Notes under the pieces: generated by a model
Told to the model about the DNA's origin: nothing
Databases searched by the model: none
Seen by the model: the letters and a program-made list of their open reading frames with translations, nothing else
Shown: positions 2,061 to 48,611 of the stretch, piece after piece
Layout of the letters: every line of letters starts with the position of its first letter
How positions within the stretch are numbered: the first letter of the stretch is position 1
Assembly (NCBI RefSeq): GCF_964355755.1
Contig: NC_092671.1
Location: 37,279,304 to 37,343,303 of the forward strand
DNA: 64,000 nucleotides
Direction of reading: 5' to 3'
Source: Antedon mediterranea
Lineage: Eukaryota; Echinodermata; Crinoidea; Comatulida; Antedonidae
Position numbers and translations under genes: made by a program

Positions 2061-3180
2061 TCTTCCAGTTCATATAAGACAAGAAGAAAACAAGGCCATA
2101 TACATGGCTGCAGTCGCGTGCTCAAATTTGAGTTAGTGTTTACCGACCGACCGTCCGACCAACATAATCGCCCCCACGGGGCCGGATAGGAATTTTCAGA
2201 GATTCAATCATTTCCGGGGTTTTTTATTCTTTGTTTTTCGCCTATCCCAAGGTTAAGAGTGATTTAGAAAGATGATATGGTTAGCATACGTTTTCTTTCG
2301 GCTCATTAAATTATACGTTAACATGTAACAGGTTTTCACTGTTAGGCTTAAAGTTTATTTGTTTGTAACAAAAACCTTATCTAGGCTTCCTTCTACCAGG
2401 GAGTTGTAAAATAAACAACAACAACTCCCTGCTTCTACCCATGCTTTTTATTATGTTACATCGTGTATTTTGTGTATGTGTAGAGAATTGTTAATAAACG
2501 AAACGAAGCGAAAACGAAACGAAACTGATATAATAATTAATTCAACAAAAGTCACTTAGGATATTTTAACTTAATTTTAAATGCATATAGTATTATTTAC
2601 ATTATAAAATTGGTTCAACAGAAAGTATAAAAATACAAGGCTATTTAATTTTAATTTTGCTTACATTCCTTGGCATCTGAAACGAAGATATGTAATTAGT
2701 TTTGTTGGTTTGTTATTTACGATGTGCATATGTTTATGGTAGTTGGCGTGTGTGGACGCACCGTCACAGAATAAACATGTTTTAAACAGATAGTTTGTTT
2801 TTGTTGGTTCTTCTATGGGGTTAACGGAGACTGAGAAGAGATTAGCTCTTAACTTCTAACAATTGCTATGCTATAATTCATAAATTATAATAATACAAAT
2901 CCATTTTCCCATTTTTCAAAAATATCATTTATTTAACTTTAATACAGCATTGTTAATTTTATTTACAGTAATATAATAATTATTATGAGGCCTATACAAG
3001 TTTTTATTTCTGTTACCAGCGCGATTCACAGTCACCACTATGTCTTCTTCGGTCAAGATTTTATAATAATAAGTAAAATCATTATAATCTTATTATTGGA
3101 GTAACATGTATATAAGGCAATTATACTAGTGTCAATATTAATATTATTATGTAACTTCTTATTATAGAGAACCTTTGGGG
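2060..3180. other. AT-rich intergenic stretch
   Basis: No supported gene. It holds a perfect 11-bp stem (CAGGGAGTTGT / ACAACTCCCTG, about 2398-2433) and a short CGAAAACGAAACGAAAC-type simple repeat at about 2500-2525. Both look like mobile-element debris. Confidence 0.5.
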
Positions 3181-3189
3181 ACACCTTAA

Positions 3190-9168: not shown

Positions 9169-9832
9169 CTGTAAAATACAATACAGTATTTTTTCAGTTA
9201 GTGTAAACTATAAGATGTATTCCAGAAGGAAGGACAGAGTGTGAGGATGATCAACATAACCCTAATGTGGGCTTTGTTGGCTAAGAAAGAAAATAAGAAA
9301 ATGGTTTCTAAAAATGTCTACAATTAAAAAGAAAAGCAACCAACATAACAGTAATCTCTGCAACGAACATAACAGTAACCTCTGTCAATTTACGAAAACA
9401 ACAAAATCTAAACCATCACCGCTATAATAATACAAAGATAAACAAATATATACATAGTGAATGTTTATGATTTGAATGGGGTTAATTTTAATGATTTTAA
9501 AAATTGAGGCTGTCACGAATACAACATTCGTTATTTGCTTCATAACTGTCACACATTGTCTAACAACTTTTATTCAATTTCATGTATTGTAAATGGCGAC
9601 ACCACGCAGTAGATATCAAGTCGGATTTCACAAATATAACCCAACCTATCGTATCGAATACAATTATAAAAATGTTTACACAAAGCTAAGAAGAGTGGCC
9701 TACAATAGTAGGGACTACCTTCAATCATTACAATGAGAGAAAATAATACATAGCTGGATACAAAGATATTTTCCATGTGTGTTATAATACACATTGTATA
9801 TAGAACCTTATTTTATTATAGAACAAGTTATT
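9169..9832. other. TRIM 5' flank
   Basis: Upstream of the TRIM start codon. No coding evidence and no clear TATA box were found. The sequence is AT-rich and unlike the paralogous blocks that follow. Confidence 0.4.
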
Positions 9833-24773: not shown

Positions 24774-27700
24774 TTAAATAGATTGTATAATTTGATTGAC
24801 TGCGTTGCGTGAATTGTTTATACAATCATTAACACTGACTCCATAGTAAGATGATCCTAGCAATGATAGTGGTAATCTCTCATCTATTATGTGCGACTCA
24901 AGATTTTCTGGAATAAAAAATATTTATGTATTTACAAATATTTATTTGAAAGATTATATAGAATAAAATATCAAAAACAAGAGGATAATAAAATTGTGTT
25001 TTATACGCCACCATATATTTATCATTATTATTTTAAAATATAATTTGATGACAAAAAAAATTGACGTTTCTGAGCCATCATGGAACCATGATATATGAAT
25101 AGTTAAATAATTAAATAATTTACAAGGTCAATCGGTGATCTCAATTTACATCATCGCGATAGCTTCGCACCTATGGAACTTTTTTTGTTCGGATTTACCT
25201 TTTAAATATGGCGCCATCTGGAGTTTTTAAAGTAACTTATTATAACAAGAGTACTATTCCATAATCAATTCAAAGTATTTTTAAAATTAAATAATTATCA
25301 ATTATTGTTTTTTATAATATTTTTCTTACCCAAAACTTTAAAATGACCTGGTTTGTAAGTTGGGATACATTTCTGATGAATTTTTACTGCAGTATTTATT
25401 AGTTCATCAACGATACCAAGATGGTCTTTGATATTGTCCTTAGCAACTGTCAATAAATGGTCGTTATCTACCGAGGTTACACTCCCAAAATGCTCCTGGA
25501 ACCAGCTTCCACCCATCATACACTGAAAAATAAAAGTACATTTTTTATAATAGGATTAAAACGACGAAGTATAAATGCTTCAGTTTGTGTAACCAGCTGA
25601 TTATTACATAATATAATGTGTGAGGTTTTACTGTATTAAATACTGTACTCGCTTGGTTGATTGAATATCACAGTTGTTTATTCAGTAATACGGTATATTA
25701 CACGATAAAGCAATAATATTAAGAAACAGGAACGAAGTGATGCTGTAAAGGCCAATTTACACAGACGAGCGGTAACGGTACGCGGTAATTGTAAGCGAAA
25801 AACCGCGTGGCTTTTCCCATTTACACAGCGCGCGGAGTTCGCAAACGGAGTGGTGGAAAGTAGGCGAGTGTAGGCCTCGAGGCTAATGCATGTTACAGTC
25901 ACTGCTGGCCTGGATGTGACTGACTGTCAGTAGGCCTAGCACACACAGATCTAAGTTTTAGAGGGATTTGTTGCCTAATAACGTACTAAAATGTATATTT
26001 TCTTTTCACTATCCATATAAAAACAATTATTCAGTTTCAGTTTCAGTTTTACGGCACTCGTATTTATTGTCGTCTTTGACTCGACGGACGCAAAAAAAAA
26101 GTTGTTGATAGATGACGTCATTTCAATCATATCGTTGGTTGGCCAGAATTCATAATTACCGCGCGGTAATTTCACAAAATTGAATCTGTTTCGATCCTGA
26201 GCAGACTTCCGCTCAACCGCTCGTTCGCTCCGCGTTCTGTGTAAATGGTCACAAGAAATAACATAGATTCTATTTTTGCGTTTTCCGCTCAACTTTACCG
26301 CTTACCGTTACCGCTCGTCTGTGTAAATTGGCCTTTTGTGAGGCATGGCTGTAGATGTGCTTTGTGTCTGGCCTCTTCTTATACTTGGGGGTATAATCGG
26401 CTTCTGTTCATTAGCATATGTAATTACATCATCTCTGGGCTTAACTATTGGGCCTAAGTTTGTCCTGGAGGCACCTTTTGAATGTGTGTATGAGGCTTAT
26501 AGTTCCATTTGCATTTTTCTATTTCGTTTGTGTGACAGAACAATTTATTTAATATGTGGTCAAGATAAATACAAAACAATAATTTGAGTTGCAAATAAAA
26601 CCATAAGGTAAAAACCAGAAGACAATTTTTCTTGTCCTGTTAGACCTTATATTTGATAAAAAATACAGATAAACGATAACTATATGTTGTTTAAAAATTT
26701 AAAATTTAACAACCATACTCACTGTTAATCTGGTTGATGGTGAATCTTGACTATCATTACTTGGAAATGTACATGAATCAAATATTACACCTAGAAGTTT
26801 ACTTTGTTGATTTGATGGAATAAGATAACCAAAGCCCTAAATAAACAGAAGAAAATGTAGTATAATATATATATAAGAATAATCCATTGTTGGATACAAG
26901 ATCTTGTAATAATTTACCATAACAGATACAGTAACTTAGTATCTACATGAACATTCTAGAATAAGATGTTTTGATTTAAGAAACCATGTATAAGTAATAA
27001 GAACAATCAGGAACATTCCAGAAGTGCTATTAATAGAAACTGTAATCCCATAGAATAAGAAGTATAAAGAATGATCTAGAAGGTTATGAACATATTGTAT
27101 ATAAGGGAAAGTATGACAATTGTAAGGAGGGAGAAGGATTTTTGATTTAAGCATTTATTTTGAAGAAGGTTGGATATTAGATTGTAAAAGTTATCAGGAA
27201 GCTTGTTTTTAAAGTGCTTACTGGATTGAAATGATTGAAATTAAAGCTTTGTTTTTGAGTTATTTTACAACTTGTATGTTTTTAACTGTTGTTATTTTTA
27301 TTGTAATTTCAACCTTGGAAGGCAAATTTCATTTACTGTGTATTTGACAATAAATTTTAACTTGAACTTGAACTTGAACTTGAACTTTGTAGATTTTGTG
27401 TGTATACTTTTATGTCACAAGGGAGTTCCTAAAGTATTTTCAACCGCTCGGAAACATACGTAACTAAGAGGAGTTTGTGACAGATCAAATAAGATCGAAA
27501 CAGTACTACTACTATTAATGTCTTAATTTGATATTACACTCCTCTACATACTGTTATATACCTATAGTATGTCGTTTTGTAGAGCACTCTTCAGTTCGAA
27601 ACGGTGCATTTTTGTTGTGAATACTATATTAGCATTTTGCAAAGCACGCTAGTTGAGTTTGTGCACTCTTTGTGTTCATAATTAGTGTACTATGTCCCAC

Positions 27701-30700
27701 ATAATTGGCTCAGCCTATATTGTGCCAGTTCTGTGGTATATACCATTTCGTAACCTGAGCTGCACTGACGAGAACTGCAGATTGGATATATACAGCATAT
27801 GTATGTTTTTAGTTTAAGGCAAAACTGACATACCTGTTGCTTTAGTATATTTCCGTTATATTGCAAATTAACAACAGCAACATCAACTGCATCCATCGAA
27901 GACAGCGCATCTCTAAAGGTAGAATTATGCTTCGATAAAACGGACGTAAGAGCTGAAATTGAAAAAAGGACACTGTGTAAAACTGAATCAATATGCTATG
28001 TACAAAATTCTGCCGCATGAATACAAGACTATGAAAGAAAATAATCCTACCACTTAAATTGTTGTGGTCTTAAGCAAGCATTGTCTACATTATCAACAAA
28101 ATTGTGATGTGCCAAAATATGGTAGTGATATGCCCAAATATGGTAGTGATATGACATCATCATATATGGGCACATTACATTTTTTATCACATAAAGTTTA
28201 GACAGAGCTTAAATGCAATTGTCAAGAATATTTATTAATTTCTTTTATATATGGGCTCAGGTTTTAACAGTATTTTAAACAAGTTAAAGAGTAAGATGAT
28301 ACACAGAAAGCTGCAACATATCAGAACCGAATTCGAGCCTTAATTAATGATGATTTTTTTTTTACAGATTTATGAAAAGGAATACTGTAGATGTTTACAA
28401 TGTTAAATTATTATATTTCATTAAAACATTTTGATTAGCAATAACCACTGATCAATGAATTTGAGACATGTAGTGACCTAAACTTATGTTCTATTAAAGA
28501 AGTAAAGCCTTATATTAATTTTTATATACATATTGACATTTATTTTATGAATTATTAATTAGTTCCTTTTTAACATTTGTTTGCTACGTAATAATATAAA
28601 ATGGTCATTTTGAAAATTAAAGTCTTTCTATCTCTCTCACCATACATTTGTCTTTATTTCTTCATTCCGGTGAAAACGCGTAAATGACCATGCAGAGTCA
28701 CTAAAGATATTCGTGATTTTGGCATTCATATCAACAAGGTGGTATTGTGTAAAATGTGGCTACGCTACACTGGCTAAAATACTCCCTGCATTTATAGGCC
28801 TCGTATTATAATAAGAAACAGTCTATTATTTACCCTTTAATCTCTAAATGGTATCATTTACCTTGTTATTTACCTTGTGAGGGTATTGCACTCAATACAT
28901 GATCAGCTTCAATGCAATTTCCTGAACTTGTTGAAACATTAGCAACCTTAAAGGAATGTAAACATACTTACATTTTCTACAAATACAGTTTTTTTTAAAT
29001 CTTAAAATTTGGATGAACACATACGATACGATAAAACTTTATTGTCACAACGGCAAAAATATACTGCTATGAGATATGGTTCCTTAGGTACACTCAAGTT
29101 AGTTTGAATATAACATAAACTAAAACTAAAGACTAAAATAAATAATAAACAGAGAAATGTAACAGAAACATGAGTAATAAGCGGACTAGCGTTTGAAATC
29201 TCTATTGAACAACCTGATAGCTGATGGAATATATGTGTTTCTAAATCTATTTGTTTTGACATGGCAGCCTTTAGAGAAATGCATAATTAAAATACAATGT
29301 TATAAACGTAGATCTTGCGTACACCAGCAGTGAAGTCAACTGATGCTAACGCCCGTATTCTTAAACCGGACTAGTTGTAGTTTGAAGTTTGACTTGAAAA
29401 AGTCGTAGTTCGAGCTATTACTTCAAATTCGATTAAAAAACGAAGTAGTCGAAGTTTGCAGTTCGACTTAATGAAGTCGAGCTTTTAGTCGAGTTGCACA
29501 CGTCTGGGTAACAAAGGCTATACATTGGCCAATGACAAGAGAGTATTTGAGGAGCAGACGAAATTTTGCGCATTGATATCACTTTCCATTTTCTTACAAC
29601 ACTTTTTACGCATCAGGACTATATTATACATGAAAAGTAATTTCAATCGTTAATTATTAGAACAAGATCAGTATCAATTTAACAGTGAAGTACTTTTGAT
29701 TAACAACAAACAAAATATTCAAAATATATTCAGGAACCATGGCGGTACGGTAACTTTTATATTTTCTAGGCCCCCAACAAAGTATGATCGCGACGAACCA
29801 CGCACTTCTTCGCGTGACAAGAAAGCGCTAGGCCCCCTAAACATTCCATCGCGTGGTGAATTTCCGCATCTGTCATTGTCGCTATGGCGTGACGTTGTTC
29901 AAGTCGGACTTGCGCGAAGAAAATAATGTAATTTGTATACGGTTGTAAATAAAGATTATTTTCATTATTATAACTTATACCAATGTATACTTAATATAAA
30001 AATAGATATTTCATTTTTCAATATCTGGCCAATATAACAACTCAATGACTGTTACGTTTTTCATAAACATCGTTTAAAAACCATTTAGTCGACCATTTAG
30101 CCTGCCCCCTCCAGGATTAAAATAATCGATCAAAATTCGTCTCGATTTAGTCGAGGTTGGCCTGAATTAGTCAGCGATTTAGTTGAAGTTCGGTTTATGA
30201 ATTAAAATGACGTCATTTTACAAGTTTTAGCTCGAACTACGACTAAAGTCCAGTTTAAGAATACGGGCGTCAGTATCCATCAATGACGACTATGTGAATT
30301 TAGAAGAAGATGGCTACAAGAACAGCAACAGTAAAGATGGTTTTGTATATATATAATTTTTTAAGAACAAATTTATTGTTATTATATGGCTAGCTTTACC
30401 TTTTTACCTGCATCTGTTTCCTTGAAATCAATGGATGTACATGCTGTAGACTTTATCACACTAACTCCTGCATCGATTAAAGTTTCATATATTTTGTCGG
30501 GTAGCTTTTGAAGCCCTCCCTCTAATGACCACATTGTCCAACGCTCATTTGTGGATCTCTCAATCAGGTGGTTTGATTGGACGTCTAAACTACTCTCTAC
30601 AATAGATTGAAAAATGATCAATAATAATTAATAAATGAAAACACTCAGAAAATGAGTGAAGTACTTTTGAAAATATTGCCACAGAGAGTGCATATTGATA

Positions 30701-33131
30701 TTTTGGCCAATGTTAAAAGAATAGAATTTTCCTTTTATTGTTATTTGTGAAGCTATTAATGAACCGATTTTTATGAATTTCAATAGGCATGTTCTGTAAG
30801 TATATACTTATTTACAGAATGATAACTTGAAAATTGTAGGCACTATCGGGCTAACAAATGCATTAAATGGAAAGAATATTTTCATGAAATAAATTACTAA
30901 TAGAGAGATTGTAAATGCATGGCAAAGACATTCATTGCCTTTTTTTTTTTGGATGTGGTAAACGAAAAGCGAAGGTGGTAAATATAAAAAATAAACATAA
31001 AATAAAATTACCTTGTTTAGCTTTGGAAGGACTTAGATTAGCAAGAACAACCGAGCCACGGGACTGTTCCGCATCAAATAACATTGGAAAACATGACCTG
31101 ACACTAAGTTTACGGCAATCTGCTGCGAATACGCCAATACATAAAGCATCAACTAGATAATCTGCAATCTTAACAATACAAAAATATTTCGATTTATAAA
31201 TGAAACTGTAAAGGCCTCTAAGTCTAAAAAAGAAAGAAAAAACCCCTTCCCAAATACCACCACGGTATTTGGGGGTGGACATCTGCCATTTCTTGATTTA
31301 AACAGGGGAACAGACTAATTGTCTAATTTCATTCTATCAAGTGGTTTGATAGTTCTTTTAGGGCACATTCTTTTTGAAACCCATGCTTTAAAGTACAATA
31401 CTAATCTTTAGCTCTGTCTGTTTGACAAAAAAAAGTTTGATTTGCCCATATATGGTAGTAATATGCTTAAATATGGTGACAATATGACATCATGTCCATA
31501 CATAGGCACATCACATTTTTTGGTCACACAAAGTTTGATAGTGTGGACAGAGCTTTACTTACATCATTTGAAAATCTTCGACTAACAAACGAATGTATAC
31601 TTTCATCTTCTTTTAAAGATTTTTTCTTGAATATTTCTTTTATGAAAGTGGTGATAAGACGTTGACTAAAGAGTGGTTGTTTCTTGAAAAGCGCCCCCAG
31701 ATTGTTAGGTAGAGTATGAAGTTGTCCGTTGGCGTAGATGAATCGGTTTTGCGAACCAGGATGTGTCTGCAACACTGGTAAAACCTTATCAGATAAACCA
31801 AGATCATTTACCTGAATAAAACCAGGATGTTATAAACTATTAATTTAATTAAAGTGAATAAAAATGCAGTTTTGTAATTACAACTCCCTAGTGCAACCAT
31901 TTAACCAAATAATAATGAACATCAATATACAGTATTATATAACACCTATATAAATTCCTGTCATTTGATTGGACGAATGTGGGTCACATGGCGTGCAATA
32001 GTACGCACTATTCAACGATCGTTAAATAGTACTTTTTGAAACATTTTTGTGTACGAAAAAAAAACGTCTAGATGTTATATAAAACAAATAATGAATGTTT
32101 TGTATTCGTGTAATGGTACAAATAATGGCACTTGGTGAATGATGAAAGGTTATATCAACTCGGCTTTGCCTCGTTGATATAACCTTTCATCATTCATCTC
32201 GTGCCATTATTTGTACCATTGCACTCATAAACATTCATTATTTGTATACTATTTTTAAAATTAATAAAAAGAGATAAATATACCATACACGAATCCTGTA
32301 TAGATACAGGTATGTAAATCTTAACCTGCTGTGGAGTCAATAAAACAATTAAAAGAGTAATTTCTTTAGCAAAAGACATAAAAAATAAAATGAAAACATG
32401 ACTGAAAGATTACCAAATCAAGTGACGCCCTCCCAACTCCAAAAGGTCGTAGACTCCTTGGTCCATGCTCAAATATCGCTCCATTGTTCAGCTGAGTAGA
32501 TTCAATCCAGCCACCAATCCGTGGACTGTTTTCCAAGACCGTAACCTTTAAAACAAATTAAAATTTATATCGGCAGGCCTAGCGATGATTTTCGCGAAGC
32601 TAAGCTGGCGATGTATTTCCGAAGGGTGCTCAGTATTAATTTATTAAAAATAGTTTTAAATAAAAAATTATCGATTTTTTACAATTTTATGATTGCAGAA
32701 TGTTGTAGACAACTCGTGAGTAGGTTGGATGAAGATTTTGAGTAATTTTAAGGGGTGGGTACGAAACTGCATTAGCGCTCAATAATGGTTTGAACAAAAT
32801 ACTACTTTTTCACATTATAAAAGTAATTTAACTATTTTTTTCAAGGAATAAAATAGCGCCCTCATACTGTGCGATTACGTTTCAATGTTGGTTTTGGTAC
32901 GACTTGACCATTTATTGACAAACACCCTCCAAGTGTCACTTTCCTCCCTGCGAGACAACAGAAATTCTGGCCAGGTACGACGCTAGCATTTGGGGTACGA
33001 GTTTGCAATGCCCTTACCTTATTTAAACACCTTTGGTGTTTCAATCCATTTAACGACATCTGCAAGTAATAAGCAGCAGACAACCCACTTATTCCGCCAC
33101 CAAGAACGACAAAATTTCGTACTTTCTCCAT
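24774..33131 (-). CDS. PPOX: Protoporphyrinogen oxidase
   Basis: Ten exons on the minus strand give 493 aa plus stop: 33131-33018, 32545-32414, 31811-31563, 31168-31012, 30596-30400, 28946-28874, 27952-27834, 26836-26723, 25522-25330, 24907-24774. PPOX is the mitochondrial FAD enzyme that oxidises protoporphyrinogen IX to protoporphyrin IX, the penultimate step of heme synthesis. The N-terminal Rossmann motif is VVLGGGISGLSAAYYL (G11, G13, G16). It is followed by VTVLENSPRIGGWIES, FEHGPRSLRPFG, CRKLSVRSCFPMLFDAEQ, RWTMWSLEGGLQKLP, VAVVNLQY, GGSWFQ and the C-terminal YYGVSVNDCI FAD-binding segment, all in the order of human PPOX (477 aa). Phases agree throughout. An upstream in-frame ATG at 33161 exists; the one at 33131 is chosen because it sits just before the Rossmann strand as in orthologues. 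The stop lies 1.06 kb upstream of the NGLY1 start. Confidence 0.97.
25747..26336. mobile_element. Terminal-inverted-repeat element in PPOX intron 8
   Basis: Ends AAAGGCCAATTTACACAGAC and GTCTGTGTAAATTGGCCTTT are perfect inverted repeats that continue into CGAGCGGTAACGGTA. The trinucleotide TGT flanks both ends (25744-25746 and 26337-26339) as a likely target duplication. A second internal pair CCATTTACACAG / CTGTGTAAATGG is present. No transposase is encoded. Confidence 0.85.
27180..27390 (+). mobile_element. Non-LTR retrotransposon 3' UTR (PPOX intron 7)
   Basis: TTTGACAATAAATTTT followed by five AACTTG repeats (27358-27387) is the usual end of CR1/L2-type elements. No coding part remains. 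Confidence 0.6.
28074..28212. repeat. Palindromic MITE, copy 5 (PPOX intron 6)
   Basis: CATTGTCTACATTATCAA on the left, TTTAGACAGAGCTTAA on the right, two AAATATGGTAGTGATATG motifs and a GGGCACATTACATTTTTT arm. Confidence 0.85.
29020..29300 (-). mobile_element. Non-LTR retrotransposon 3' end (PPOX intron 5)
   Basis: Minus strand reads TNRFRNTYIPSAIRLFNRDF, the typical C-terminal box, and ends with CAATAAAGTTTTATCGTATC. Confidence 0.7.
29351..30268. mobile_element. Terminal-inverted-repeat element, about 0.92 kb (PPOX intron 5)
   Basis: Ends GCCCGTATTCTTAAAC and GTTTAAGAATACGGGC are inverted repeats, with further complementary GTAGTTCGAGCTA / TAGCTCGAACTACG inside. A 76-codon plus-strand frame at 29696-29926 has no recognisable domain. 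No transposase is visible, so it is non-autonomous. Confidence 0.75.
31411..31555. repeat. Palindromic MITE, copy 6 (PPOX intron 3)
   Basis: GCTCTGTCTG on the left, TTTGATAGTGTGGACAGAGC on the right; ends 8 bp short of exon 3. Confidence 0.8.
32085..32244. repeat. Long hairpin (PPOX intron 2)
   Basis: Arms 32085-32159 and 32173-32244 are nearly complementary along about 72 bp (for example GGTTATATCAAC / GTTGATATAACC and CAAATAATGAATG / CATTCATTATTTG) with a 13-nt loop. A compact fold-back MITE is the simplest reading. Confidence 0.85.
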
Positions 33132-36100
33132 GACTTTTTCGGACGCGAAGACGACGAACACACGGCAAACACGGGAAAACCGCCTGATAACTTATATGGC
33201 GCGCTATATATGCATAAATTTAAGTATAGAGCTCAATAACAGACGGACACATTTATAATAAATTCTATTTTGTGCTCTTTTTTTTTATTCAGAAAAAACA
33301 TTATACTGTATTTTATACAGCAACAAAAATTAGAATAAAAAGTGATCAATTTATGCTAAAACTATAATGTAATCTAGGCCTATACAGGTACTTCTTTGGT
33401 TACGAATCAATATGCATTCTCTGCTTGGAAAGAATAAATATTAATAGTTTACTATGTGTCATTGAGGTATACATTATACTATAGGGACCAGATTGCACTA
33501 AAAATTGCACTTGAAATTTACAAATTCAGCAACAAAAGCTAAAGTATCTGGCTACAATTAGGTATGGTCACTATGTTACAGACCTCTCAACTTTCCCGAT
33601 AATCTCCATCAAAGATACTTAATACATTGCAGATGCAGAAATGAAAAAAAAAAATATATCTTGATTTTATAATTTTCTATAGAGGGAATTACTATTATTT
33701 AGCATATTTTGATTGTTTTAATAGCGCCCTCTATGGTTTGATGTATTTTTCAAAATGTGATAGCACCCTCTATAGTTTCGACATGCTTTTATCCCCCAAA
33801 TACTGTACTTCATCTTTCCAAGTAGGAAAGCATGGATGGGAGTGGCATTTTATTATAAAACTCTCTTGTAACATGATTTAATATTTTTCAAAGATTTTCA
33901 TTGTTAATTTGTAAGGCACGTTACAGTGATTGGAACAACAATTATGCATAAGGAAATACAAAAATATTCTATTACCAATCTTTTTTCTGAGAAATTTCCT
34001 GAAATTGTTTCACCAAAGATTAAAAAGAAAAATGGATAATAGTAAGACTTCACACAAAAATATAAATATTGCTTTCTTCCTTTTGTTACCACAGCGGAAA
34101 TGAGGTAAAAAAATAAATTAAACGAAAAAGAAACAAATTACACGATCCGTCAAAATACGTTTTCATAACAGCAAGATTGCACAAAAATATAAATATTGCT
34201 TTCTTCCTTTTGTTACCACAGCGGATATGAGGTAAAAAAAAAACAAATTAAACAAAAAATGAAACAAATTTCAAGATATGTCCGTCAAAGTACGCAAGAT
34301 TGCTCAGAAAAAAATATTTCTTTCTTCCTTTTGTTACCACAGCGGAAGCGGATATGAGATAAAAAACAAATTAAACGAAAAATGTATCATATTACAACCA
34401 AAATAAGTATTATATTTAAGAAATATCAGGAAAAGAACAATAAAAACCTTCATTCTAAAATAAATGAATATTAAAATTATATATAAACAAAAAAATAACA
34501 ACAAGATAATAGGGAAGTTAAAACTATTTGATTTTGTTGATAAATAATCTTGGAAACGAAAAAATGCTGCGAGTGCATAAAAATTAAAATAAATATGACA
34601 TGACATACATGTCTCTCAAAGAACTCTGGGTTAAATTAGGCAATCAATTAGCATAATCATATTTTCTCTCGTCATGTTGTGCCATTATTAACGCGTATGT
34701 CTTGTTTTCGTGAAGAGAAACATTTGATGACAGGTCTACCACCAATGTATTTTCCTTACTACCATCTTTTATGTTGAAATAATCACAGATATGGTAACAT
34801 CATCAAGGAACGTGTCTATCAACCGACAACGTTCCTTGCCCGCTGTCATACTCATTGCTGTAACGCATTCTAGAAGAGTATTCCCTTGATTTCAGAGAGT
34901 CAAATATCTATGGTTCGGTTTTAAACTGTGGAACCTAAAGTCAATAAGAAAAAATTTATATATAAATAATTATGTACATTCATAAAGATATAATCAGTAC
35001 ATTGATAATTAATGTGACATAATAATAATTATTTTGAATTCAAATTTGTAATGCGCTAATTCCAGTAGTAAGTGATCAATGCGCGGTGTATGAGAGCTCA
35101 ATTTGAAAGAAAAAGATGAGTTTTCAAGGCAGATTTAAAGGCGATAGTAGAAGAACATGACCTAAGAGGCGGGTAGGTCAGGTATACCAAAAGTTGAAAT
35201 AAACAGGCCTATTCCTATGAATAATATGTATTTTCCTATTTCAAAAAGAAAATATTATTATTGATTATTAAAACAAGTGTATTACTGTCAGTTGTTTTCT
35301 AGTGTGGGCCTGATTGTTAATTTTAAGTCAACTTGCAGACCAGATAGATTGTAGAATTATAGATGCGGTCTTTTTACGCCATACTTTATATGGAGTCCAG
35401 AGGAAGAGGTTTAAACCTGAAAGCACATTTGCTTTAAGGATATATACATACAAAAACAATTTCAAAATTAAAAATTTATTTTCAGCAGTAGCTCTTTGTG
35501 GTCCATAGGAAATGCACTTGCATTTGCCAGTTGAGACCCCATGAGTAAACTGCTGTTTCATTTTCAAGGGCAGTAAAAATTTAAAAAAATTCAATTTGTA
35601 TTTAAAACGTTAGTTAGACATTATTTATCCAGTATTGTATTTATTTGAATAAAAAAAATAATAATAAAAATTCGCTCCAGGGCGTTTATTGGTCAGGAAG
35701 GTTTGCATGGGGGGGGGGGGGGCATTTATTCAAGGGTGGCATTCCTTTTTTGGTGTAATATGGTAACATGTATAATCAAATAAATACCCAGTAGATATGA
35801 AAAAATACAACACAAATATCGAGTAATATCGAGAAGTGATAAAATAGAGTGAAAATTGTATCAAAATGCTTGGTAAATTTTAGGTCATGTCAATCAATGA
35901 ATTCTACTAAAAATAGAAATAAGTTGTAGGCCCTAATACAATATTGTGTAGCTATGTATGTGGAAGGTGTTTATTCGAGTAAATAATTAAAGGCCCGGGG
36001 CGTTTATTCGAGGGGTGGGGGTGTTTATTTGGGGGAGGCATTAGTATTCAAACCGGCGCATTTATTCGATAAATACGGTTGTATTTGAAGAAACCAACAA

Positions 36101-36354
36101 ATGCTACTCAACAAAATTGACAAGTATTACCTGGCGGCGTTATTTCTTTTCGTTGAACACTTTCTAAGAAAAATAAAATTAATATTTAAAGTGAGCTTGC
36201 AATCTGAATTAAGATATGCGTAATGTAATTATCTGCGCATTTTTTATTCATGCTCTACTAAAAATAATTTTTAAAATATTACCTGAAGCTGATGCAAGCA
36301 ATGTATGAGTAGCTATTGATTTGGTAGAACTTTCTAAAAAAATAAGTATAGATG

Positions 36355-36472
36355 CTTTGGTCATTTCAAAGTGTGACGTGCCCAAATATGGCAGTGATAT
36401 GACATCATCATGTCCATACATGGGCAAATCACATTTTTTTTATACATAAATTCGATGTGTAGACAGAGCATT
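36355..36472. repeat. Palindromic MITE, copy 7 (degraded)
   Basis: Only the right end GTGTAGACAGAGC is clear, with GTGACGTGCCCAAATATGG and GACATCATCATGTCC retained. It is shared with 43018-43126, so it predates the segmental duplication. Confidence 0.75.
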
Positions 36473-36489
36473 AGAAACATTGGTAGTTA

Positions 36490-36750
36490 ATAAAATGCTA
36501 ATATTTCCTGTCTTTCTCTCCGAGATGGCCAATTTATTTAATTCATTTAAAAAAAAATTAATATTACTCTTTTGATTCTAATTATTTTGTGCATTATATT
36601 TATTTTGTTTATCTTTATAAATTCTATTTATTTAATTTTAATTGTTACATGTTTATGTCTGGTCATATTGTATTTTTGTGAGGGTCCCTAATGATCAGCT
36701 TCAGCTGGATGGACCACCCTCGTAAAATATTGTGGAAATAAATAAATTTA
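36490..36750 (+). mobile_element. CR1-like retrotransposon 3' UTR (also at 43140-43405)
   Basis: A GAGGGTCC...GGACCACCCTC stem is followed by AAATAAATAAATTT. The second copy is part of the segmental duplication. Confidence 0.65.
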
Positions 36751-37150
36751 CTGTTTTGTGCCACCATTAATATTAAAGCAGTTTAAAAACATATTTTTTT
36801 AATGAGGTCATTTAGAATACAATTTTTTTTTAGACTTTTTTGGAATGTACAATATGGTTGTTGATGGTATCCAGAAAACAGTGACACAACAGAGTTCATC
36901 TGAACCCAAATACATTTCAATACAACACACAAATTACCTGGTGTGGATATGTCTGTCATCAGACTAGTAGAATTGTTTGTTGGTTTGAATATTAGAGTAG
37001 TAGAATTGAATGGGGCGACTGAAAAAACAGAAAACAGAAAAAGTTATTAATAATTTATTGAAATATTCTACAAACTATAATGAAAGCTGGAACAGGAATA
37101 GAAACAAAGAATAATTTGAAAAAAAAAAGATTGAAAATTACCTTGAAAGT

Positions 37151-39142: not shown

Positions 39143-42100
39143 TCAATTAGCATAATCATATTTTCTCTCGTCATGTTGTGCCATTATTAACGCGTATGTC
39201 TTGTTTTCGTGAAGAGAAACATTTGATGACAGGTCTACCACCAATGTATTTTCCTTACTACCATCTTTTATGTTGAAATAATCAACAGATATGGTAACAT
39301 CATCAAGGCTGTGTCTATCAACCGACAACGTTCCTTGCCCGCTGTCATACTCATTGCTGTAACGCATTCTAGAAGATTCCCTTGATTTCAGAGAGTCAAA
39401 TATCTCTGGTTCGGTTTTAAACTGTGGAACCTAAAGTCAACATAAGAAAAAATTTATATATAAATAATTATGTACATTCATAAAGATATAATCAGTACAT
39501 TGATAAGTAATGTGACATAATAATAATTATTTTGAATTCGAATTTGTAATGCGCCAATTCCAGCAGTAAGTGATCAAAGGCGCGGTGTATGAGAGCTCAA
39601 TTTGAAAGAAAAAGATGAGTTTTCAAGGCAGATTTAAAGGCGATAGTAGAAGAACATGATCTAATAGAGGCGGGTAGGTCATTCCACAAGGAGGAAGAGG
39701 CAGCAGAAGTAAAGGTGCTAAAGCCATACGTTTTAGTGTTAAAATTCCGGAATGGAAGGAGATTTTTTAAAAAGACGAGCAAAGGCATGTGAAGAGGAAG
39801 AAGGTCAGAGATATAACGATATACAATCAGTAATGAGAAATCTGCTGAAAAAATAAAAATACTAAAATAATTTCACACTCACTCTATAACCAGCAGGAAC
39901 ACCGGGAAATTTTGGATCAGGAATTTCCCAAAACAGTTTCTTAACAGCGACTCGAAAAAACTGGACTGCGAATATACCAATAGTTGAGATAAACAGCCCT
40001 ATTCCTATGAATAATACGTATTTTCCTATTTCAAAAAGAAAATATTATTATTGATTCTTAAAACAAGTGTATTACTGTCAGTTGTTTTCTAGTGTGGGCC
40101 TGATTGTTAATTTTAAGTCAACTTGCAGACCAGATAGATTGAAGAATTATAGATGCGGTCTTTTTACGCCATACTTTATATGGAGTCCAGAGGAAGGGGT
40201 TTAAACCTGAAAGCACATTTGCTTTAAGGATATATACATACAAAAAAAATTTCAAAATTAAAAATTTATTTTCAGCAGTAGCTCTTTGTGGTCCATAGGA
40301 AATGCACTTGCATTTGCCACTTGAGACCCCATTAGGCTAGTCAATCTAGCAAAAAAAACAGCCCAAAGTGAAACAAATTGCAAACAGAGATTTTTCTTTT
40401 TTAAATGGTCATATATGATGAGGAGATCAAAATTTGAGCATCACACCTCTGTCACTCATCCCGATGATATGCAAATTAGCTTAAATATGCAAATTAGGGT
40501 GAAATTACAAGGTTACCATATCTCAAAAACTACTAGTCCGAGAGAGTTGGTTTTTTCACTGATCTATTCAAAATGTATATATTTATATTTACTCTAATGA
40601 AACATTTTACGAAAAAATGACCGGAAGTACAACATTTGACCTTCGACCCCATTTCTCAATGTTTGCATATACAATGTGACTAAAATGTCTGTAGAGACTT
40701 TATTTTGCCCTCAAATGACCCAGACATAGGTTCCTAATGGCCAGCATAGGATCACTTTGTAATTCCCAAAATCACACCTTTGTCACACACCTCGAAAGTA
40801 TGCAAATTAGTAGTACAATTTAAATAAAATATGCAAATAAGGGGAAAAAATTACAGTTGTCCTATATCTCGAAAACCACTAATGCTAGAGAGCTGATTTT
40901 TTCACAGCCGTATTCAAAATGTACATATTTCTATTTGCTCCAATGAAACATTTTACAAAAAATTGACCGGAAGTATGACATTTGACCCTCGACCCCATTT
41001 CTCAATATTGCATATATAAATGAAACTAAAATGTCTGTAGAGACTTTGTTTTGCCCTCAAATGACTCCGATACAGGTTTCTAATAGCCAACATAGGACTG
41101 TTTAGTAGATCTCAAAATCACACCTGTATCACTCACCTCCAAAGTATGAAAATTATTAGTACAAGTTACATGAAATATGCAAATTAGAGGGTGAAATTAA
41201 AGGTTCCTATATATCGAAAACCACTAAGGCTAGAGAGTTGATTTTTTCAATAACTTGTTCAGAATGTACATATTTATATTTACTCTAATGAAACATTTTA
41301 CGAAAAAATGACCGGAAATACAACAATTGACCCTCGACCCCATTTATTAATGTTTGCATACATAATGCGACTAAATTGTCTGTAGAGACTTTGTTTTGGA
41401 CTCAAATAACTCGGATACATGTTTCCTATAGTCAGCATAGGACCGCTTTGTAATTCCCAAAATCACGCCTAAACCTGTATCCGAGTCATTTGAGGGCAAA
41501 ACAAAGTCTCTACAGACATTTTAGTTTTCATTATATATGCAATATTGAGAAATGGGGTCGAGGGTCAAATGTCATAGTTCCGAGCATTTTTTTGTAAAAT
41601 GTCTCATTACAGCAAATATAAATATATACATTTTAAATATTTTAGTGAAAAAATCAACACTCTAGCATTAGCGGTTTTCGAGATATGGCAACGCTGTAAT
41701 TTCACTCCCTAATTTGCATATTTAATATTACTTGTACTACTAATTTGCATACTTTCGAGGTGCGTGACGAAGTTGTGATTTTAGGAATTATAATACAGTT
41801 CTATGGTGGGTATTGAAAAACAATATCCAAGTCATCGAGTCCAAATTAAAGTCTCTACAGACATTTTAATCACATATTTAAGTAAATATTGAGAAATGGG
41901 GTCAAGGGTCAAAATTTGGTACTTCCGGACATTTTTATGTAAAATGTCTCATTAGAGCAAATATAAATATATATATTCTGAACCAGACTGTGCAAAAATG
42001 AACTCTCTTCGATTAGTAGCTTTTAAGATATGGTAACCCTGTAATTTCACCCTAATTTGCATATTTAAGCTAATTTGCATACCTTCGGGATGAGTGTCAG

Positions 42101-45100
42101 AGGTGTGATGCTCAAAAAATAATTACCTTATCATATGTAACCATTTAAAAAAAAAAAATCTCTGTTTGCAATTTGTTTCACTCAAAATGCTAGATTGACT
42201 AGCCTACATGAGTAAACTGCTGTTTCATTTTCAAGGGCAGTAAAAAAAAATTCAATTTGTATTTAAAACGTTAGTTAGACATTATTTATCCAGTATTGTA
42301 TTTATTTGAATAAAAAAAAAAATAATAAAAATTCGCTCCAGGGCATTTATTGGTCAGGAAGGTTTGTATGGGGGGGGGGGGGGGGCATTTATTCAAGGGT
42401 GGCATTCCTTTTTTGGTGTAATATGGTAACATGTATAATCAAATAAATACCCAGTAGATATGAAAAAATACAACACAAATATCGAGTAATATCGAGAAGT
42501 GATAAAATACAGTGAAAATTGTATTAAAATGCTTGGTAAATTTTAGATCATTTCAATCAATGAATTCTACTAAAAATAGAAATAAGTTGTAGGCCCTAAT
42601 ACAATATTGTGTAGCTATGTATGTGGAAGGTGTTTATTTGAGTAAATAATTAAAGGCCCGGGGCGTTTATTCGAGGGGTGGGGGTGTTTATTTGGGGGAG
42701 GCATTAGTATTCAAACCGGCGCATTTATTCGATAAATACGGTTGTATTTGAAGAAACCAACAAATGCTACTCAACAAAATTGACAAGTATTACCTGGCGG
42801 CGTTGTTATTTCTTTTTGTTGAACACTTTCTAAGAAAAATAAAATTAATATTTAAAGTGAGCTTGCAATCTGAATTAAGATATGCGTAATGTAATTATCT
42901 GCGCATTTTTATTCATGCTCTAATAAAAATAATTTTTAAAATATTACCTGAAGCTGATGCAAGCAATGTATGAGTAGCTATTGATTTGGTAGAACTTTCT
43001 AAAAAAATAAGTATAGATGCTTTGGTCATTTTAAAGTGTGATGTGTAGTGATATGACATCATCATGTCCATATATGGGCAAATCACATTTTTTTTATACA
43101 TAAATTCGATGTGTAGACAGAGCATTAGAAACATTGGTAGTTAATAAAATGCTAATATTTCCTGTCTTTCTCTCCGAGATGGCCAATTTAATTTAATTTA
43201 TTAAAAAAAAATTAATATTACTCTTTTGATTCTAATTATTTTGTGCATAATATTTATTTTGTTTATCTTTATAAATTCTATTTATTTAATTTTAATTGTT
43301 ACATGTTTATGTCTGGTCATATTGTATTTTTGTGAGGGTCCCTAATGATCAGCTTCAGCTGGATGGACCACCCTCGTAAAATATTGTGGAAATAAATAAA
43401 TTTACTGTTTTGTGCCACCATTAATAGTAAAGCAGTTTAAAAACGTATTTTTTTAATGAGGTCATTTAGAATACAATTTTATTTATAGACTTTTTTGGAA
43501 TGTACAATATGGTTGTTGATGGTATCCAGAAAACAGTGACACAACAGAGTTCATCTGAACCCAAATACATTTCAATACAACACACAAATTACCTGGTGTG
43601 GATATGTCTGTCATCAGACTAGTAGAATTGTTTGTTGGTTTGAATATTTGAGTAGTAGAATTGAATGGGGCGACTGAACAAACAGAAAACAGAAAAACTT
43701 ATTAATAATTTATTAAAATATTCTACAAACTATAATAAAGCTGGAACAGGAATAAAAAAAAAGGAGAATTTGAAAAAAAAAGATTGAAAATTACCTGGAA
43801 AGTCAATAGTAGATGAAATAGGTTTTGGTTTGGAAAATGAAACATTTCCTAAAAAAAAAAAAAAAAAAATGTCGTACTAATATTAAATGATAATAATATT
43901 TAATTTAATAGAGCGCCAAATGCAGGGCGCGGCTAAGTGTTGAACAATCAGCAGAAAAAAGAGCACAAAATTATTGGCGCAAATAAAAAAATTCACATAA
44001 TAGCTCCTGTACCAGGGGGATTACCAACTATCTGATAGGGAAACAGTGACTAATATAATAATAATAATAATGCGCTTCTCTCACAGCATTTATTTGGTCC
44101 AATAAAACATATCAGAAATATACTATTGATAATCCGTGGCCACATGTGGCTAAAGACATAAAATAAAAAAGGTGGGATTTAAGGAGTTGTTTGAATGTGG
44201 CGAGTGATTCAACTTTCCCGATTGAGTTTGGAAGGGCGTTCCAAAGAACATCAGCTGACCAGGAAAATGCGTGTTGTCCATAACATTTTATTATTTTAAT
44301 ATTTTCCATAATACTGAATACTGTTGATAAATTAATTATTAATAATATATGACTTCAATTTTTTTTGTTAATAATGAAATTATCTTCAAATATTCAGAAA
44401 AGAGAACTGTCTATCAATTGAAATAATAACCAAATAATTACCTGTTGATGTGACCGGTTTGATTGATTCGGCAGCATTTTCTAAATTAATAGGAAATACT
44501 TTAGTTATTTAAATTCGTGTTTGTTATTCTGGTTTGACTCAGTACTCAGAATTATTTGTTTTGACTCAGTACTCAGAATTATTTGTTTTGACTCAGTACT
44601 CAGAATTTTATGTTTGGACTCAGTACTCAGAATTACTTGTTTGGACTTAGTACTCAGAATTATTAATTTTAATTGAAAAATTCTTGCTACTGTAATTAAA
44701 CATTTAGAATTACTTCTTAAGCTCTGTCTACACTATCAAACTAGTTTTGACAAAAAAATTGTGGTGTGCCCATATATGGTAGTGATATGACATCATCATA
44801 TATTGTCCATATATGGGCACATCACATTTTTTGTCACATAAAGAGAGCTTAAGAATTTATTTGTTGGGTTTGAGGCTTTCTAATTTAGTGAGACTGTGGT
44901 TTGGTTGCTTGTTACCCAACCCTAGGGTCATGGTTCAAATCCTGTTACAGTTCCCTGTTTTTCTGATGTCGAATACAGCACCACTACCTAAACCTCATAT
45001 GAAACTTTGTTTAAAAAGCATGTGTTTAAAGCTCAGTCTACATTATTAAACTAAACGAGTGTGATGTCCCACATATGGTAGCGATATTCCCAAATATGGT

Positions 45101-48100
45101 AGTGATATGACATCATCATGTCCATATATGGGCACATCACATTTTTTTGTCACATAAAGTTTGATAGTGTAGACAGAGCTTTATGAGTTTATTGCTTGCT
45201 GTTTGATTTAAAACAAATTAAATAAAATTACATAGAAATTTTCAAATGACCATTTTAAAGGTTAAAGTTTTTCATCGGAATTAATGTTTATTCAAACTTT
45301 AATGAATTGTGGTACTCACCATCTGGTTCTGTTGTAAATTCAACCCGTTTTGGTTCACTCCATGCTCTGACATTTTTACATCGAGCTTCAAATATGTATG
45401 TTGTATTAGGTTTCAGTCCATATTCGGTCCATTTCTTCTTTTTTTCAAACTACAAGATAAGCAACAAAAACTAAAAACAACTGTTATGACTTCCACTAAA
45501 ATTTATTTTTATAATTCCACCCCCCCCCCCCCCACCCCACCCCACATTTAGGCTAAATTTGGACACAAGAGTTTGGTAAAAACTTCTATTCTTAATGTTA
45601 TCCGTGTATAATCCCAACATACACTATTTTTCAAAGAAATTGTACCTAGTACAAATGACACAATACTCTATATGGCGGTTTAATTTTGTGGCACAATAGC
45701 AACGCTTTTAATACTTGCTGTTTAAAGCTCTGCCTACACTATCTTATTTTTTTATTTATTTATTTATTCGACTTCTCACTAACTCAGTTAGTGAAGGATC
45801 TGGACCAACAGGTGGTAAACACCTCTAAAACGGTCCAGTCCCAATTTGCACAGTGGCTGTGTGTGACAGTGGCTGTGTTTGTGTGGACTAGTACACCGGG
45901 GTAACCCCCTACTCGTCTCGAAAGATGTACTAGGTTCTTTAAAGTGCGCATGAGCTATGTGTACACTGGACCTACGGTTTATAGTCCTTATCCGAGAAGA
46001 CTCGTTTTACCACCAGAACCATGGAGCGAGTGAGCCTCGAACCCTTGCCAATGTTATGGCTACGTAATTACGGTTCCACTGTCTTAACCGCTCGGCCACT
46101 CACTTGCTATCAAACTTTATGTGACAAAAAAAATGTGATGTGCCCATATGGACATGATGATGTCATATCACCACTATATTTAAGCATATCACTACCATAT
46201 TTGGGCACATCACACTTTTTTTGTCAAACTAGTTTGATAGTGTAGACAGAGCTTTGTGTCATTACCTCTACGCATGGACTCTCTGGGTCATTGGGCTGTA
46301 TCTGACAAATCTGTTTATCTAAATCTGATCTGAGAGATACGCTATTCCAATCTGTAGGATCTCTAAGACGGAGCTTTACTGTCGTGGCATTCAACATTTT
46401 GTGATCAAAATAATCCGGAGGATTAGGTATAGCTGGAAGAAAGAAGACTTAAGTCAATTATGTTTCATTTTTTGAACATTAATAAGGCCCACTTACAAAT
46501 TTTTTTTACCATATTTAATGAGTGTGATCCATCCAGCAATTGCTGATCATAAGGGACCCTCAGAGGTTCACAAGACAAACTATACACAAGATGCTCTACA
46601 TAAACAAAGTCTTTGGGAGTGGAGTTGTAATTTTGTCCTTAGAAAAAATCCTGGCATGCGACGGGACTTGAACCCAGGACCCTTACCTCATAGGCCGGCC
46701 TCCTAAATTTAGAAAATTGTAGTGAAAAAGATAGGACATGAAGGTACTGAAACCACCCCCAGATCCGCCACTGTACCTACCTACAATACTGGCTCTTAAC
46801 TTGTATTTTATACCATACACTTTCATATACTCATTCATATAATCAATTCGAACTCCAACGAGACCTGTGTTACGCAAATCATCTGGACAGCACTCTGTTA
46901 CATTTCCAATCTTTCTTTTGTTTTTGCACTCTCTGTACCTTCGAAAATTGCCCATTTCATAATTTCCCCTTTAAGAAAAAGACATTTTTTTGTATGTAAA
47001 TGCTTTTAAAGAGTCTTGGGTTACATGTATATCTATATCCTACATATGATACCAAGGCAATCTAACAACAAGACGTTGTTAAGATAGGAACTTGTAACAG
47101 TCGTTTGATCTTATGTCTGGCTGCGACAAATACCAACAGTACTGTAATTTGTACATTCTCCACAATGTTAAGGGGTGTGCAACTGATCGTGTCGCAGCCA
47201 CAGATAAATCTCCGGTTCTCAGCATCCTGTTGTTTGATTGCCTTGATGATGCACTCAGATCTTATAAACATTTTAGGAGAGAGCGTAACTGAAAAATTCC
47301 CCCCCATTAAATATGGCAAGCTCAATTTTCTAAACAGATAATGTATTGCAGCCAATACAAACTAGTACTTTCAATATCAACGTCATAACAAATCTGAAAT
47401 TTTCCAAGAGATTTTAAGTTTAAATGACAAAAATCAAGACAAGTTTATATAGAAAGCATATTTCAATTTGCAATTATACTTACCTCCCATAATACATTGT
47501 GTAGTTTGTTGAACTTGAATTTTCTTTCCATGTAAAACATAAGTCTGACCCAGTTCTTGACATGTATGTAATGTCCTCTGGTTGTTCTACAACAAATAAG
47601 GTTGTGATGTTTACATTATTTTAGAATTTTGATTTTGTGTCTCCCAACATTATACAGGATACAGTGGTGGATCCAGGATTTTGAAATGTGAGGCCCAGCA
47701 GTGGCGTAATGGCTATGAGCGCTCACTGGCTAAACCCAGGGACACCGGAGCTCATGGGGGAACAATGTGCAATGTACAGCAAAACAACATACTTTCAACA
47801 TATTTTTGTTAATGTGATGCTCTTGACTTACGTGGTCTAAGCTTCTCATCGGTGCAATTCTGGCAACCTTGCGTGCACCGTACAGAATATTGAGGAAACT
47901 TTGCGTCTTTATCATTCAACTGCAGATTCCAGGAGACACTATAGTCTTGCACAACCTAATGTGTAATAAAATGTTAATGGAGGCACTACATATCTCAATG
48001 GAAAATTTTTGTTTATCATTTGTTGACAAATGTATTTATTTTCATTTGTTTGTAAATACTGAAAGATGAGGGCGTATCATTTGATCTCTGGTGCGCGTGC

Positions 48101-48611
48101 GTACAACTGAGGACTAGTGCTGTTCTGCCGTACCACGCCGAGAATGTTAAAGAGTCGCTATCCAATCGAGTTTGAACAATACCATTTCAAATGCAAATAA
48201 TACAATACAAATTTCAGTATATCACCGGGCGGTTTCGAATTAATGTTCATTGCCTAATGTGTTTATATATAATATGTTTGAAATAAATTTGAATTTTTTT
48301 AAAGGATTTAGGTTTATAGGATTACCTATATACCCGGAATAAATCTGGGTTGGATGTTGACTGGAGTATAATAGTACTGTCTTTACAAATATATTTAGGC
48401 TTAGTACAGGTAATGATAACATTTGGTTTATTGCTGATGGTACAATATAAAGTAATTTCAGGGCTTATGACTTAACACCTAATTCTGGATCCCTTTCTTC
48501 ACAAAAAAATTCTAACCTCTCTATTGGCTTGTACGTTCCACTCATATTCAAAATATCCGGTTGCAGACATCAATAAGTCTGCCTCACATACTTCTTTGAC
48601 AATTTGACTGT
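39143..48611 (-). CDS. Class I cytokine receptor (gp130/Domeless-like), 5' exon(s) not found
   Basis: Fourteen minus-strand exons join in one frame for 536 codons: 48611-48503, 48433-48334, 47955-47832, 47586-47484, 46968-46781, 46432-46266, 45449-45320, 44480-44442, 43848-43795, 43673-43593, 42998-42948, 42829-42794, 40025-39883, 39430-39143. The extracellular part has fibronectin III-like domains with cytokine-receptor marks: the Cys/Trp strand SDLCFTWKE (exon 4), TECCPDD, and near the end of the last domain VRAWSEPKRV in place of WSXWS. Five short exons (8-12), all opening and closing in phase 1, code a Ser/Thr/Pro-rich stalk. Exon 13 holds a transmembrane helix (YVLFIGIGLFISTIGIFAV) followed by KKLFWEIPDPKFPG, a good Box1 for JAK binding. 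Exon 14 codes a short 95-residue tail with several tyrosines (DYFNI, TYALI, KYDYAN-stop) and no YxxQ. The donor of exon 1 (GTGAAG) is the least certain junction. Signal peptide exon(s) are missing. Confidence 0.85.
39540..39800 (-). mobile_element. Non-LTR retrotransposon C-terminal fragment (receptor intron 13)
   Basis: Minus strand reads YGFSTFTSAASSSLWNDLPA then SIRSCSSTIAFKSALKTHLF, the typical end of L2/CR1-like polyproteins. The end of this fragment is also in the duplicated block at about 35040-35175. Confidence 0.8.
39883..40025 (-). CDS. Receptor exon 13: transmembrane helix and Box1
   Basis: This exon is the strongest evidence for the receptor call. After two bases finishing a Gly codon it encodes KYVLFIGIGLFISTIGIFAV, then QFFRVAVKKLFWEIPDPKFP. 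The Trp, aliphatic, Pro-x-Pro pattern directly after the membrane segment matches Box1 of gp130-family receptors (W..VPDP). Acceptor AAATAG, donor GTGAGT. The duplicate at 35183-35235 has lost everything after the first half of the helix. Confidence 0.88.
40333..42206. mobile_element. 1.87-kb non-autonomous TIR element with internal repeats
   Basis: Ends TAGGCTAGTCAATCTAGCA and TGCTAGATTGACTAGCCTA are a perfect 19-bp inverted repeat, flanked by CAT on both sides (40330-40332, 42207-42209). The other duplicate has the empty site GACCCCATGAGTAAAC near 35533. The inside consists of about three direct units of roughly 345 bp (with TCTCAATRTTTGCATAT-like and TATGCAAATTAG words) followed from about 41460 by inverted units. 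No protein is encoded. A 3-bp target duplication would fit CACTA- or PIF/Harbinger-type transposases; the family is not settled. Confidence 0.93.
43018..43126. repeat. Palindromic MITE, copy 8 (degraded)
   Basis: Copy of 36355-36472 within the segmental duplication, with a further deletion of the AAATATGG part. Confidence 0.75.
44055..44310 (-). mobile_element. Non-LTR retrotransposon C-terminal fragment (receptor intron 8)
   Basis: Minus strand reads AFSWSADVLWNALPNSIGKV then ESLATFKQLLKSHLFYF, ending near an AAT-rich tail at 44055. Same C-terminal box as other L2/CR1-type copies. Confidence 0.75.
44528..44665. repeat. 27-bp tandem repeat, 5 units (receptor intron 7)
   Basis: Unit TTGACTCAGTACTCAGAATT plus TATTTGT, at 44535, 44562, 44589, 44616 and 44643. 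The first three keep TGACTCA; the last two read GGACTCA/GGACTTA. Confidence 0.9.
44716..44852. repeat. Palindromic MITE, copy 9 (receptor intron 7)
   Basis: CTTAAGCTCTGTCTACAC on the left and GAGCTTAAG on the right; the right arm lacks the GTTTGATAGTGTAGACA part. Confidence 0.85.
45027..45183. repeat. Palindromic MITE, copy 10 (receptor intron 7)
   Basis: AAGCTCAGTCTACATTATTA on the left, AGTTTGATAGTGTAGACAGA on the right, TGACATCATCATGTCC in the centre. Confidence 0.9.
45723..46254. repeat. Palindromic MITE, copy 11, split by a SINE (receptor intron 6)
   Basis: Left end AAGCTCTGCCTACACTATC stops at about 45743 and the element resumes at about 46108 with GCTATCAAACTTTATGTGAC, running to GATAGTGTAGACAGAGC. 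It lies in the opposite orientation to copy 10. Confidence 0.85.
45745..46107 (-). repeat. SINE with Ser/Leu-tRNA-like head (copy 2), nested in a MITE
   Basis: Minus strand begins AAGTGAGTGGCCGAGCGGTT (A box) with B box GGGTTCGAGGCTC, and ends in AAATAAATAAATAAAT. CTATC occurs on both sides and is the likely target duplication. Confidence 0.85.
46535..46690 (-). repeat. SINE-like repeat C, copy 2 (receptor intron 5)
   Basis: Shares ATGCTCTACATAAACAAAGT and GGGACTTGAACCCAGGACCC (plus strand) with 21170-21340. Confidence 0.65.
48055..48245 (+). repeat. Element like 59050-59345 without the tRNA-like module
   Basis: AAATACTGAAAGATGAGGGC, GTGCTGTTCTGCCGTACCAC and TTTCAGTATATCACCG are shared with 59050-59345, but CAATACCAT runs straight into TTCAAAT, skipping the tRNA-like segment of about 115 bp. 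Confidence 0.7.

Follow-up and report, generated by a model that had tools for sequence, protein, structure and literature searches.

A gene on the minus strand of a 64,000-nucleotide stretch of the Antedon mediterranea genome (contig NC_092671.1, positions 37,279,304 to 37,343,303; this whole stretch is called the window here and is numbered from its first letter) very probably encodes a divergent, short-tailed cytokine receptor chain of the class I type that docks a JAK. The original prediction had placed a JAK-binding receptor of the gp130/Domeless type at window positions 39,143-48,611. The class I-type, JAK-docking part of that proposal stands, as kinship with class I receptors is most likely from the position of the predicted Box1 motif, an intron map shared with the growth hormone receptor (GHR) and with a second receptor of this genome on contig C6, the comparison with a class I profile and the presence of JAK and STAT5-type genes. 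Its gp130/Domeless part was rejected on grounds of architecture: the three membrane-proximal fibronectin III domains of gp130-type receptors are absent from the protein and a Ser/Thr stalk lies in their place, no immunoglobulin (Ig) domain is recognisable in it, and gp130/CRLF1-like genes were found elsewhere in the genome.

The gene model consists of 14 exons with a predicted product of 520 residues. Thirteen of these lie in 39,143-48,611 (-), where every acceptor is AG and a GT donor is present on all but the final exon, and the frame stays open through the spliced exons for 498 codons. A chance origin of this reading frame is excluded because so many codons remain open across 13 spliced exons in DNA of 31-36% G+C. 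The joining of the exons in one frame was thus predicted correctly, and the predicted number of fourteen is right for the gene as a whole but not for 39,143-48,611, since the fourteenth lies outside it at 51,438-51,375 (-). This exon encodes MEHSKLFCLTILAYLHGLTQV|D, that is, a start codon and putative signal peptide ending in phase 1, and it alone, among candidates on the minus strand from 48.6 to 64 kb, combined a start codon and a hydrophobic N-terminus with a phase-1 donor that matched; from its phase and hydrophobic core it would be the signal-peptide exon of the receptor gene. The 354-Mb genome has a single copy of the gene, in that a search with the whole protein returned only its own exons, an adjoining partial copy and one weak match (E 9).

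The predicted signal peptide is followed by an N-terminal extracellular domain that spans about 73 residues, four of them cysteines (exons 2-3, 48611-48517 and 47955-47832, phases 1-0-1, defined by open frame and splice sites) and a two-domain module (residues 95-291). Domain 1 of the module (exons 4-5, 47586-47484 and 46968-46781, phases 1-2-1, with an intron positioned as in GHR) contains the LCFTW strand and C143-x11-C155, and domain 2 (exons 6-7, 46432-46266 and 45449-45320, phases 1-0-1, fibronectin III by Pfam and hhalign) contains an AIPNPP linker, YIFEARC and AWSEP. The stalk of 87 residues (Ser+Thr 34%) is encoded by five tiny phase 1-1 exons lying within 42794-44480: exons 8-10 (44480-44442, 43848-43795 and 43673-43593) and exons 11-12 (42998-42948 and 42829-42794). 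Exon 13 (39883-40025, phase 1 to 0) carries the transmembrane helix (residues ~380-401) and Box1 (WEIPDP, residues 410-415, 39913-39930), and exon 14 (39143-39430) the remaining cytoplasmic tail and the stop codon. The motifs named in the original prediction (SDLCFTWKE, WSEP, a transmembrane helix and WEIPDP) are therefore each present in the predicted protein. Inspection of the receptor protein revealed neither a kinase nor a phosphatase domain, and no F-G cysteine pair, a mark of class II receptors, was seen in module domain 2.

The structure of the gene is the strongest evidence of class I kinship. The module is encoded by four exons with intron phases 1-2-1-0-1, as in class I receptor genes, and the exon for the helix and Box1 ends in phase 0. 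In GHR the helix and Box1 are separated by a phase-2 intron (exon 8/9), which is missing in the window gene. The exon ends of human GHR lie at c.266 (R71), c.439/c.440-1, c.618, c.784 and c.945 (PMC5983672), which translate to phases 2, 1, 0 and 1, then 0 after Box1. The correspondence extends to the positions of the introns: the phase-2 intron after strand C lies 14 residues before the third cysteine (12 in GHR), the phase-1 intron two residues before PNPP (two before PDPP in GHR), the phase-0 intron 18 residues ahead of the F-strand tyrosine (20 in GHR) and the last phase-0 intron 10 residues past the final Box1 proline (11 in GHR). The joint chance of the four matches is about 5e-7 under a rough null. 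The two genes also share a degenerate WSXWS and a remaining tail held in a single last exon; they differ in that the window gene has the extra N-terminal domain and the Ser/Thr stalk, does not have the canonical C-x9-C-x-W and ends in a tail of 119 residues as against 350 in GHR.

Box1 itself lies where a class I receptor would hold its JAK. The sequence LFWEIPDP has the hydrophobic and aromatic residues and the P-x-P just inside the membrane that characterize class I Box1 motifs, with FWEIPDP starting eight residues past the helix and the tryptophan at the ninth. When the tail was shuffled, a Box1-like match fell in the first 30 residues in only 20 of 20,000 cases. A scan of the genome DNA gave 60 matches to W-x-[VIL]-P-[DN]-P and 61 to W-xx-[VI]-P-[DN]-P. 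Among the 110 of these 121 that were read (the remainder share their matched letters with read ones nearby on contig C5), the window gene was the sole match with an in-frame helix and an open frame just upstream, although such a scan is blind to receptors in which an intron separates the helix from Box1. The WEVPDP matches on C2 were rejected as receptor Box1 motifs, being antisense to an apparent Cys-rich repeat gene, as was a Box1-like exon at C5:5705272, for which the surrounding 11.5 kb held no helix or receptor exons. The tail after the helix is short, as predicted, but its length is 119 rather than about 111 residues, and it is not unusual, as tails of 50-90 residues are known from several class I chains of vertebrates. 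It contains seven tyrosines, in the motifs YRVP, YSNE, YDSG, YFNI, YALI, YDYA and YAN; none of the seven lies in a YxxQ, in agreement with the predicted lack of a STAT3-type site. STAT5-type sites have the form Y-x-x-[LI], which YFNI and YALI resemble, and YSNE and YFNI may be read as Y-x-N sites.

The genome also contains more typical relatives and predicted JAK and STAT genes. Searching it with Lep_receptor_Ig identified four exons at C6:1.2578-1.2598 Mb that encode an Ig domain, LNC-x9-CEW, WRTC-x8-C and AIPFPP. The best PDB matches of this fragment included CRLF1 (4.7e-8), the thrombopoietin receptor (3e-6) and the IL-11 receptor, and it scored 75 against the class I panel described below, so that by its predicted sequence this is clearly a genuine class I receptor, on a chromosome other than that of the window. 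Its phases are 1-2-1-0, with a phase-1 intron at A|AIPFPP comparable to that at A|IPNPP in the window gene. A search with the C6 fragment gave about seven tandem loci on C6 (1242314-1314576), six on C3 (20.6-25.3 Mb) and one on C4 (0.142 Mb), and there are thus some 14 predicted gp130/CRLF1-like class I-type loci elsewhere in the genome, a number that counts loci from a fragment search and not intact genes. An IL6Ra-bind match on C10 was set aside as apparently non-coding. A JAK FERM gene lies at C8:1978074-1978340 (-), in a 272-codon open frame covering FERM F1 and F2 (FERM_F1 3.4e-8, above the cut-off; PDB JAK2 FERM 1.7e-5), and a STAT5-type STAT gene at C2:2982547-2983309 (-), on the chromosome that also carries the window (5e-45 against STAT5A). 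Judged from these predicted genes, a JAK-docking receptor would find its machinery in place. Eleven large contigs make up 353.5 of the 354.4 Mb, which suggests eleven chromosomes; the genome sequence is rich in TAGGCCTA, and both features would suit an echinoderm such as a crinoid.

Sequence profiles gave a more equivocal picture. In Pfam the only match to rise above weaker, unrelated families was fn3 for domain 2, at 20.3 bits against a cut-off of 25. The class I panel consisted of twelve vertebrate modules entered by hand, ten of which matched PDB chains end to end, while CNTFR and IL7R were not among the 60 PDB matches listed; the sequences of the generic fibronectin III and class II panels were likewise entered by hand. 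On the class I profile the window module scored 43, where the shuffled maximum was about 21, and 45 over 167 columns when the C6 receptor was added. Several observations weigh against class I kinship. The alignment to the class I profile spans domain 2 of the module only, fibronectin 9-10 reaches 40 on the same panel, and domain 2 alone scored 33 for class I and 31 for generic fibronectin III, with no clear separation. Domain 1 by itself did not rise above noise, and no profile matched the N-terminal domain. The fibronectin III-like domains of the original prediction are thus upheld for domain 2 and not for domain 1; domain 2 is, by its predicted sequence, a fibronectin III domain of a kind that the profiles do not settle. 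The class I signature, C-x9-10-C-x-W-x26-32-C-x10-15-C together with WSXWS (PMC1963337), is also incomplete. The first cysteine is absent and the second is one place off, giving CxxW for CxW, but the third and fourth are correctly spaced (W-x28-C and C-x11-C). Of WSXWS just the second WS is kept, in VRAWSEP. WSEP by itself in any case carries little weight, since similar endings are seen in IL10RB and in ordinary fibronectin III domains. GHRs likewise depart from WSXWS (PMC6997183). Finally, class II receptor genes have the phases 1-2-1-0-1-0 (PMC8863823), a pattern that the window gene also shows, and for this reason the intron map alone indicates a class I or a class II receptor.

If the gene does encode a JAK-docking class I-type chain, the two-domain ectodomain module would bind a helical cytokine and Box1 would hold a JAK just inside the membrane. 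Ligand may then drive pairing, either as a homodimer or with a gp130/CRLF1-like chain of the same genome, upon which the paired JAKs would phosphorylate one another as well as the tyrosines of the tail; YFNI and YALI might recruit the STAT5-type STAT and the YxN sites adaptor proteins. Within this reading it is quite plausible, if somewhat short of an even chance, that the protein is a co-receptor alpha chain which would give ligand specificity to a gp130/CRLF1-like chain and contribute one JAK. The combination of an N-terminal domain, a two-domain module and a short tail with Box1 resembles IL-13Ralpha1 and IL-5Ralpha, and potential partners exist in the genome, but a homodimer is equally possible. 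It is unlikely that the protein is instead a decoy or dominant-negative receptor that, like Latran of Drosophila, blocks signalling by binding ligand or by pairing up with a long gp130-like chain. The absence of YxxQ, the short tail, the other class I-type chains of the genome and the precedent of Latran itself (PMC2914635) are what such a receptor would show. A decoy role is nevertheless made less likely by the intact Box1 and the tyrosine-rich tail of 119 residues, the tail exon has stayed intact while that of an adjoining tandem copy decayed, and a STAT5-type STAT needs no YxxQ; Latran, moreover, is described as being without intracellular domains for signalling (PMC2914635).

The remaining alternatives concern what kind of protein this is. 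A class II receptor of the interferon/IL-10 type, or a relic of the class I/II ancestor, would account exactly for the phases 1-2-1-0-1-0, but we consider it very improbable: class I is favoured over class II by Box1, the linker and the profile, the class II profile giving the module only 15.7 (shuffled maximum 21.5) where the class I profile gives 43; both Box1 and the PxPP linker have the class I form, and the F-G cysteine pair is missing from domain 2. Another fibronectin III membrane protein, of the sidekick or receptor phosphatase type, with a Box1 that arose by chance would explain why domain 2 is matched best by fn3 and, in the PDB, by sidekick-2 and PTPmu (E 0.03-0.1), as well as its generic fibronectin score; taken together, the intron map and the position of Box1 argue against this, as does the absence of a kinase or phosphatase domain, and we regard it as improbable. 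That exons of separate genes were joined artefactually seems scarcely credible even though the exon joins were read from sequence alone, as the splice sites are canonical, the frame continuous and the phases coherent in all 14 exons, and the gene is single-copy with its exons in order.

With gp130 and Domeless the class I-type chain favoured here shares the signal peptide, a module of the cytokine-binding type, the helix and a P-x-P Box1, but not the three membrane-proximal fibronectin domains, a recognisable Ig domain, YxxQ or CxW. IL-5Ralpha, IL-13Ralpha1 and the common gamma chain are similar in joining a module to a short Box1 tail (with an N-terminal domain in the alpha chains), although no orthology is detectable and the long five-exon stalk is particular to the window gene. 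Latran is likewise short, lacks YxxQ and shares its genome with gp130-like receptors, but differs in that the window gene has a complete Box1, a tyrosine-rich tail and no long receptor adjoining it. The GHR-like gene of amphioxus (GHRl) likewise encodes a non-vertebrate class I module related to GHR, but is reported as an ectodomain only, whereas the window gene has helix, Box1 and tail (PMC9010856). The published surveys consulted found few invertebrate class I receptors, with two in Ciona, and relied on similarity to gp130/Domeless or on the class I motif (PMC1963337, PMC13203501), criteria by which the window gene would probably be missed. Tied to the class I family by Box1 and intron positions, the gene suggests that a short receptor whose intron map resembled that of GHR was present in non-vertebrates and, together with the 14 or so gp130/CRLF1-like loci, that the cytokine-receptor repertoire of some invertebrates is diversified. 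More tentatively, and with some doubt, it could represent a distinct short signalling chain that kept the GHR/class II-like intron map while losing CxW and WSXWS, from a lineage outside gp130/Domeless and near the class I/II root that motif surveys did not detect.

Downstream of the gene its 3′ end is repeated in a broken tandem copy (exons 10-14, from the third stalk exon onward; 33173-37150, minus strand), recognised from blocks about 97% identical and from their translation. In this copy (33.2-37.15 kb) the helix is cut before Box1 and the tail exon contains an early stop and frameshifts, and the survival of the intact gene next to a decayed copy is consistent with constraint on the original. 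Between its exons 12 and 13 the original has an intronic repeat block of about 2 kb (40336-42206) that the broken copy does not have; the block has an internal period of about 345 bases and is present at dozens of places in the genome. Elsewhere in the window, exons at 25301-33191 (-) resemble protoporphyrinogen oxidase by eye (VLGGGISGLSAAYYL), the two pieces compared with Pfam matching nothing there, and those of a transglutaminase-fold gene at 19873-22794 (-) match Transglut_core in one exon (2.2e-11) and by eye look like peptide:N-glycanase (NGLY1). A single-exon gene of TRIM-NHL type with RING, B-box and NHL repeats occupies 7003-9207 (-), and the reverse transcriptase of a non-LTR-type element lies at 3168-5576 (+) (RVT_1 8.7e-33).

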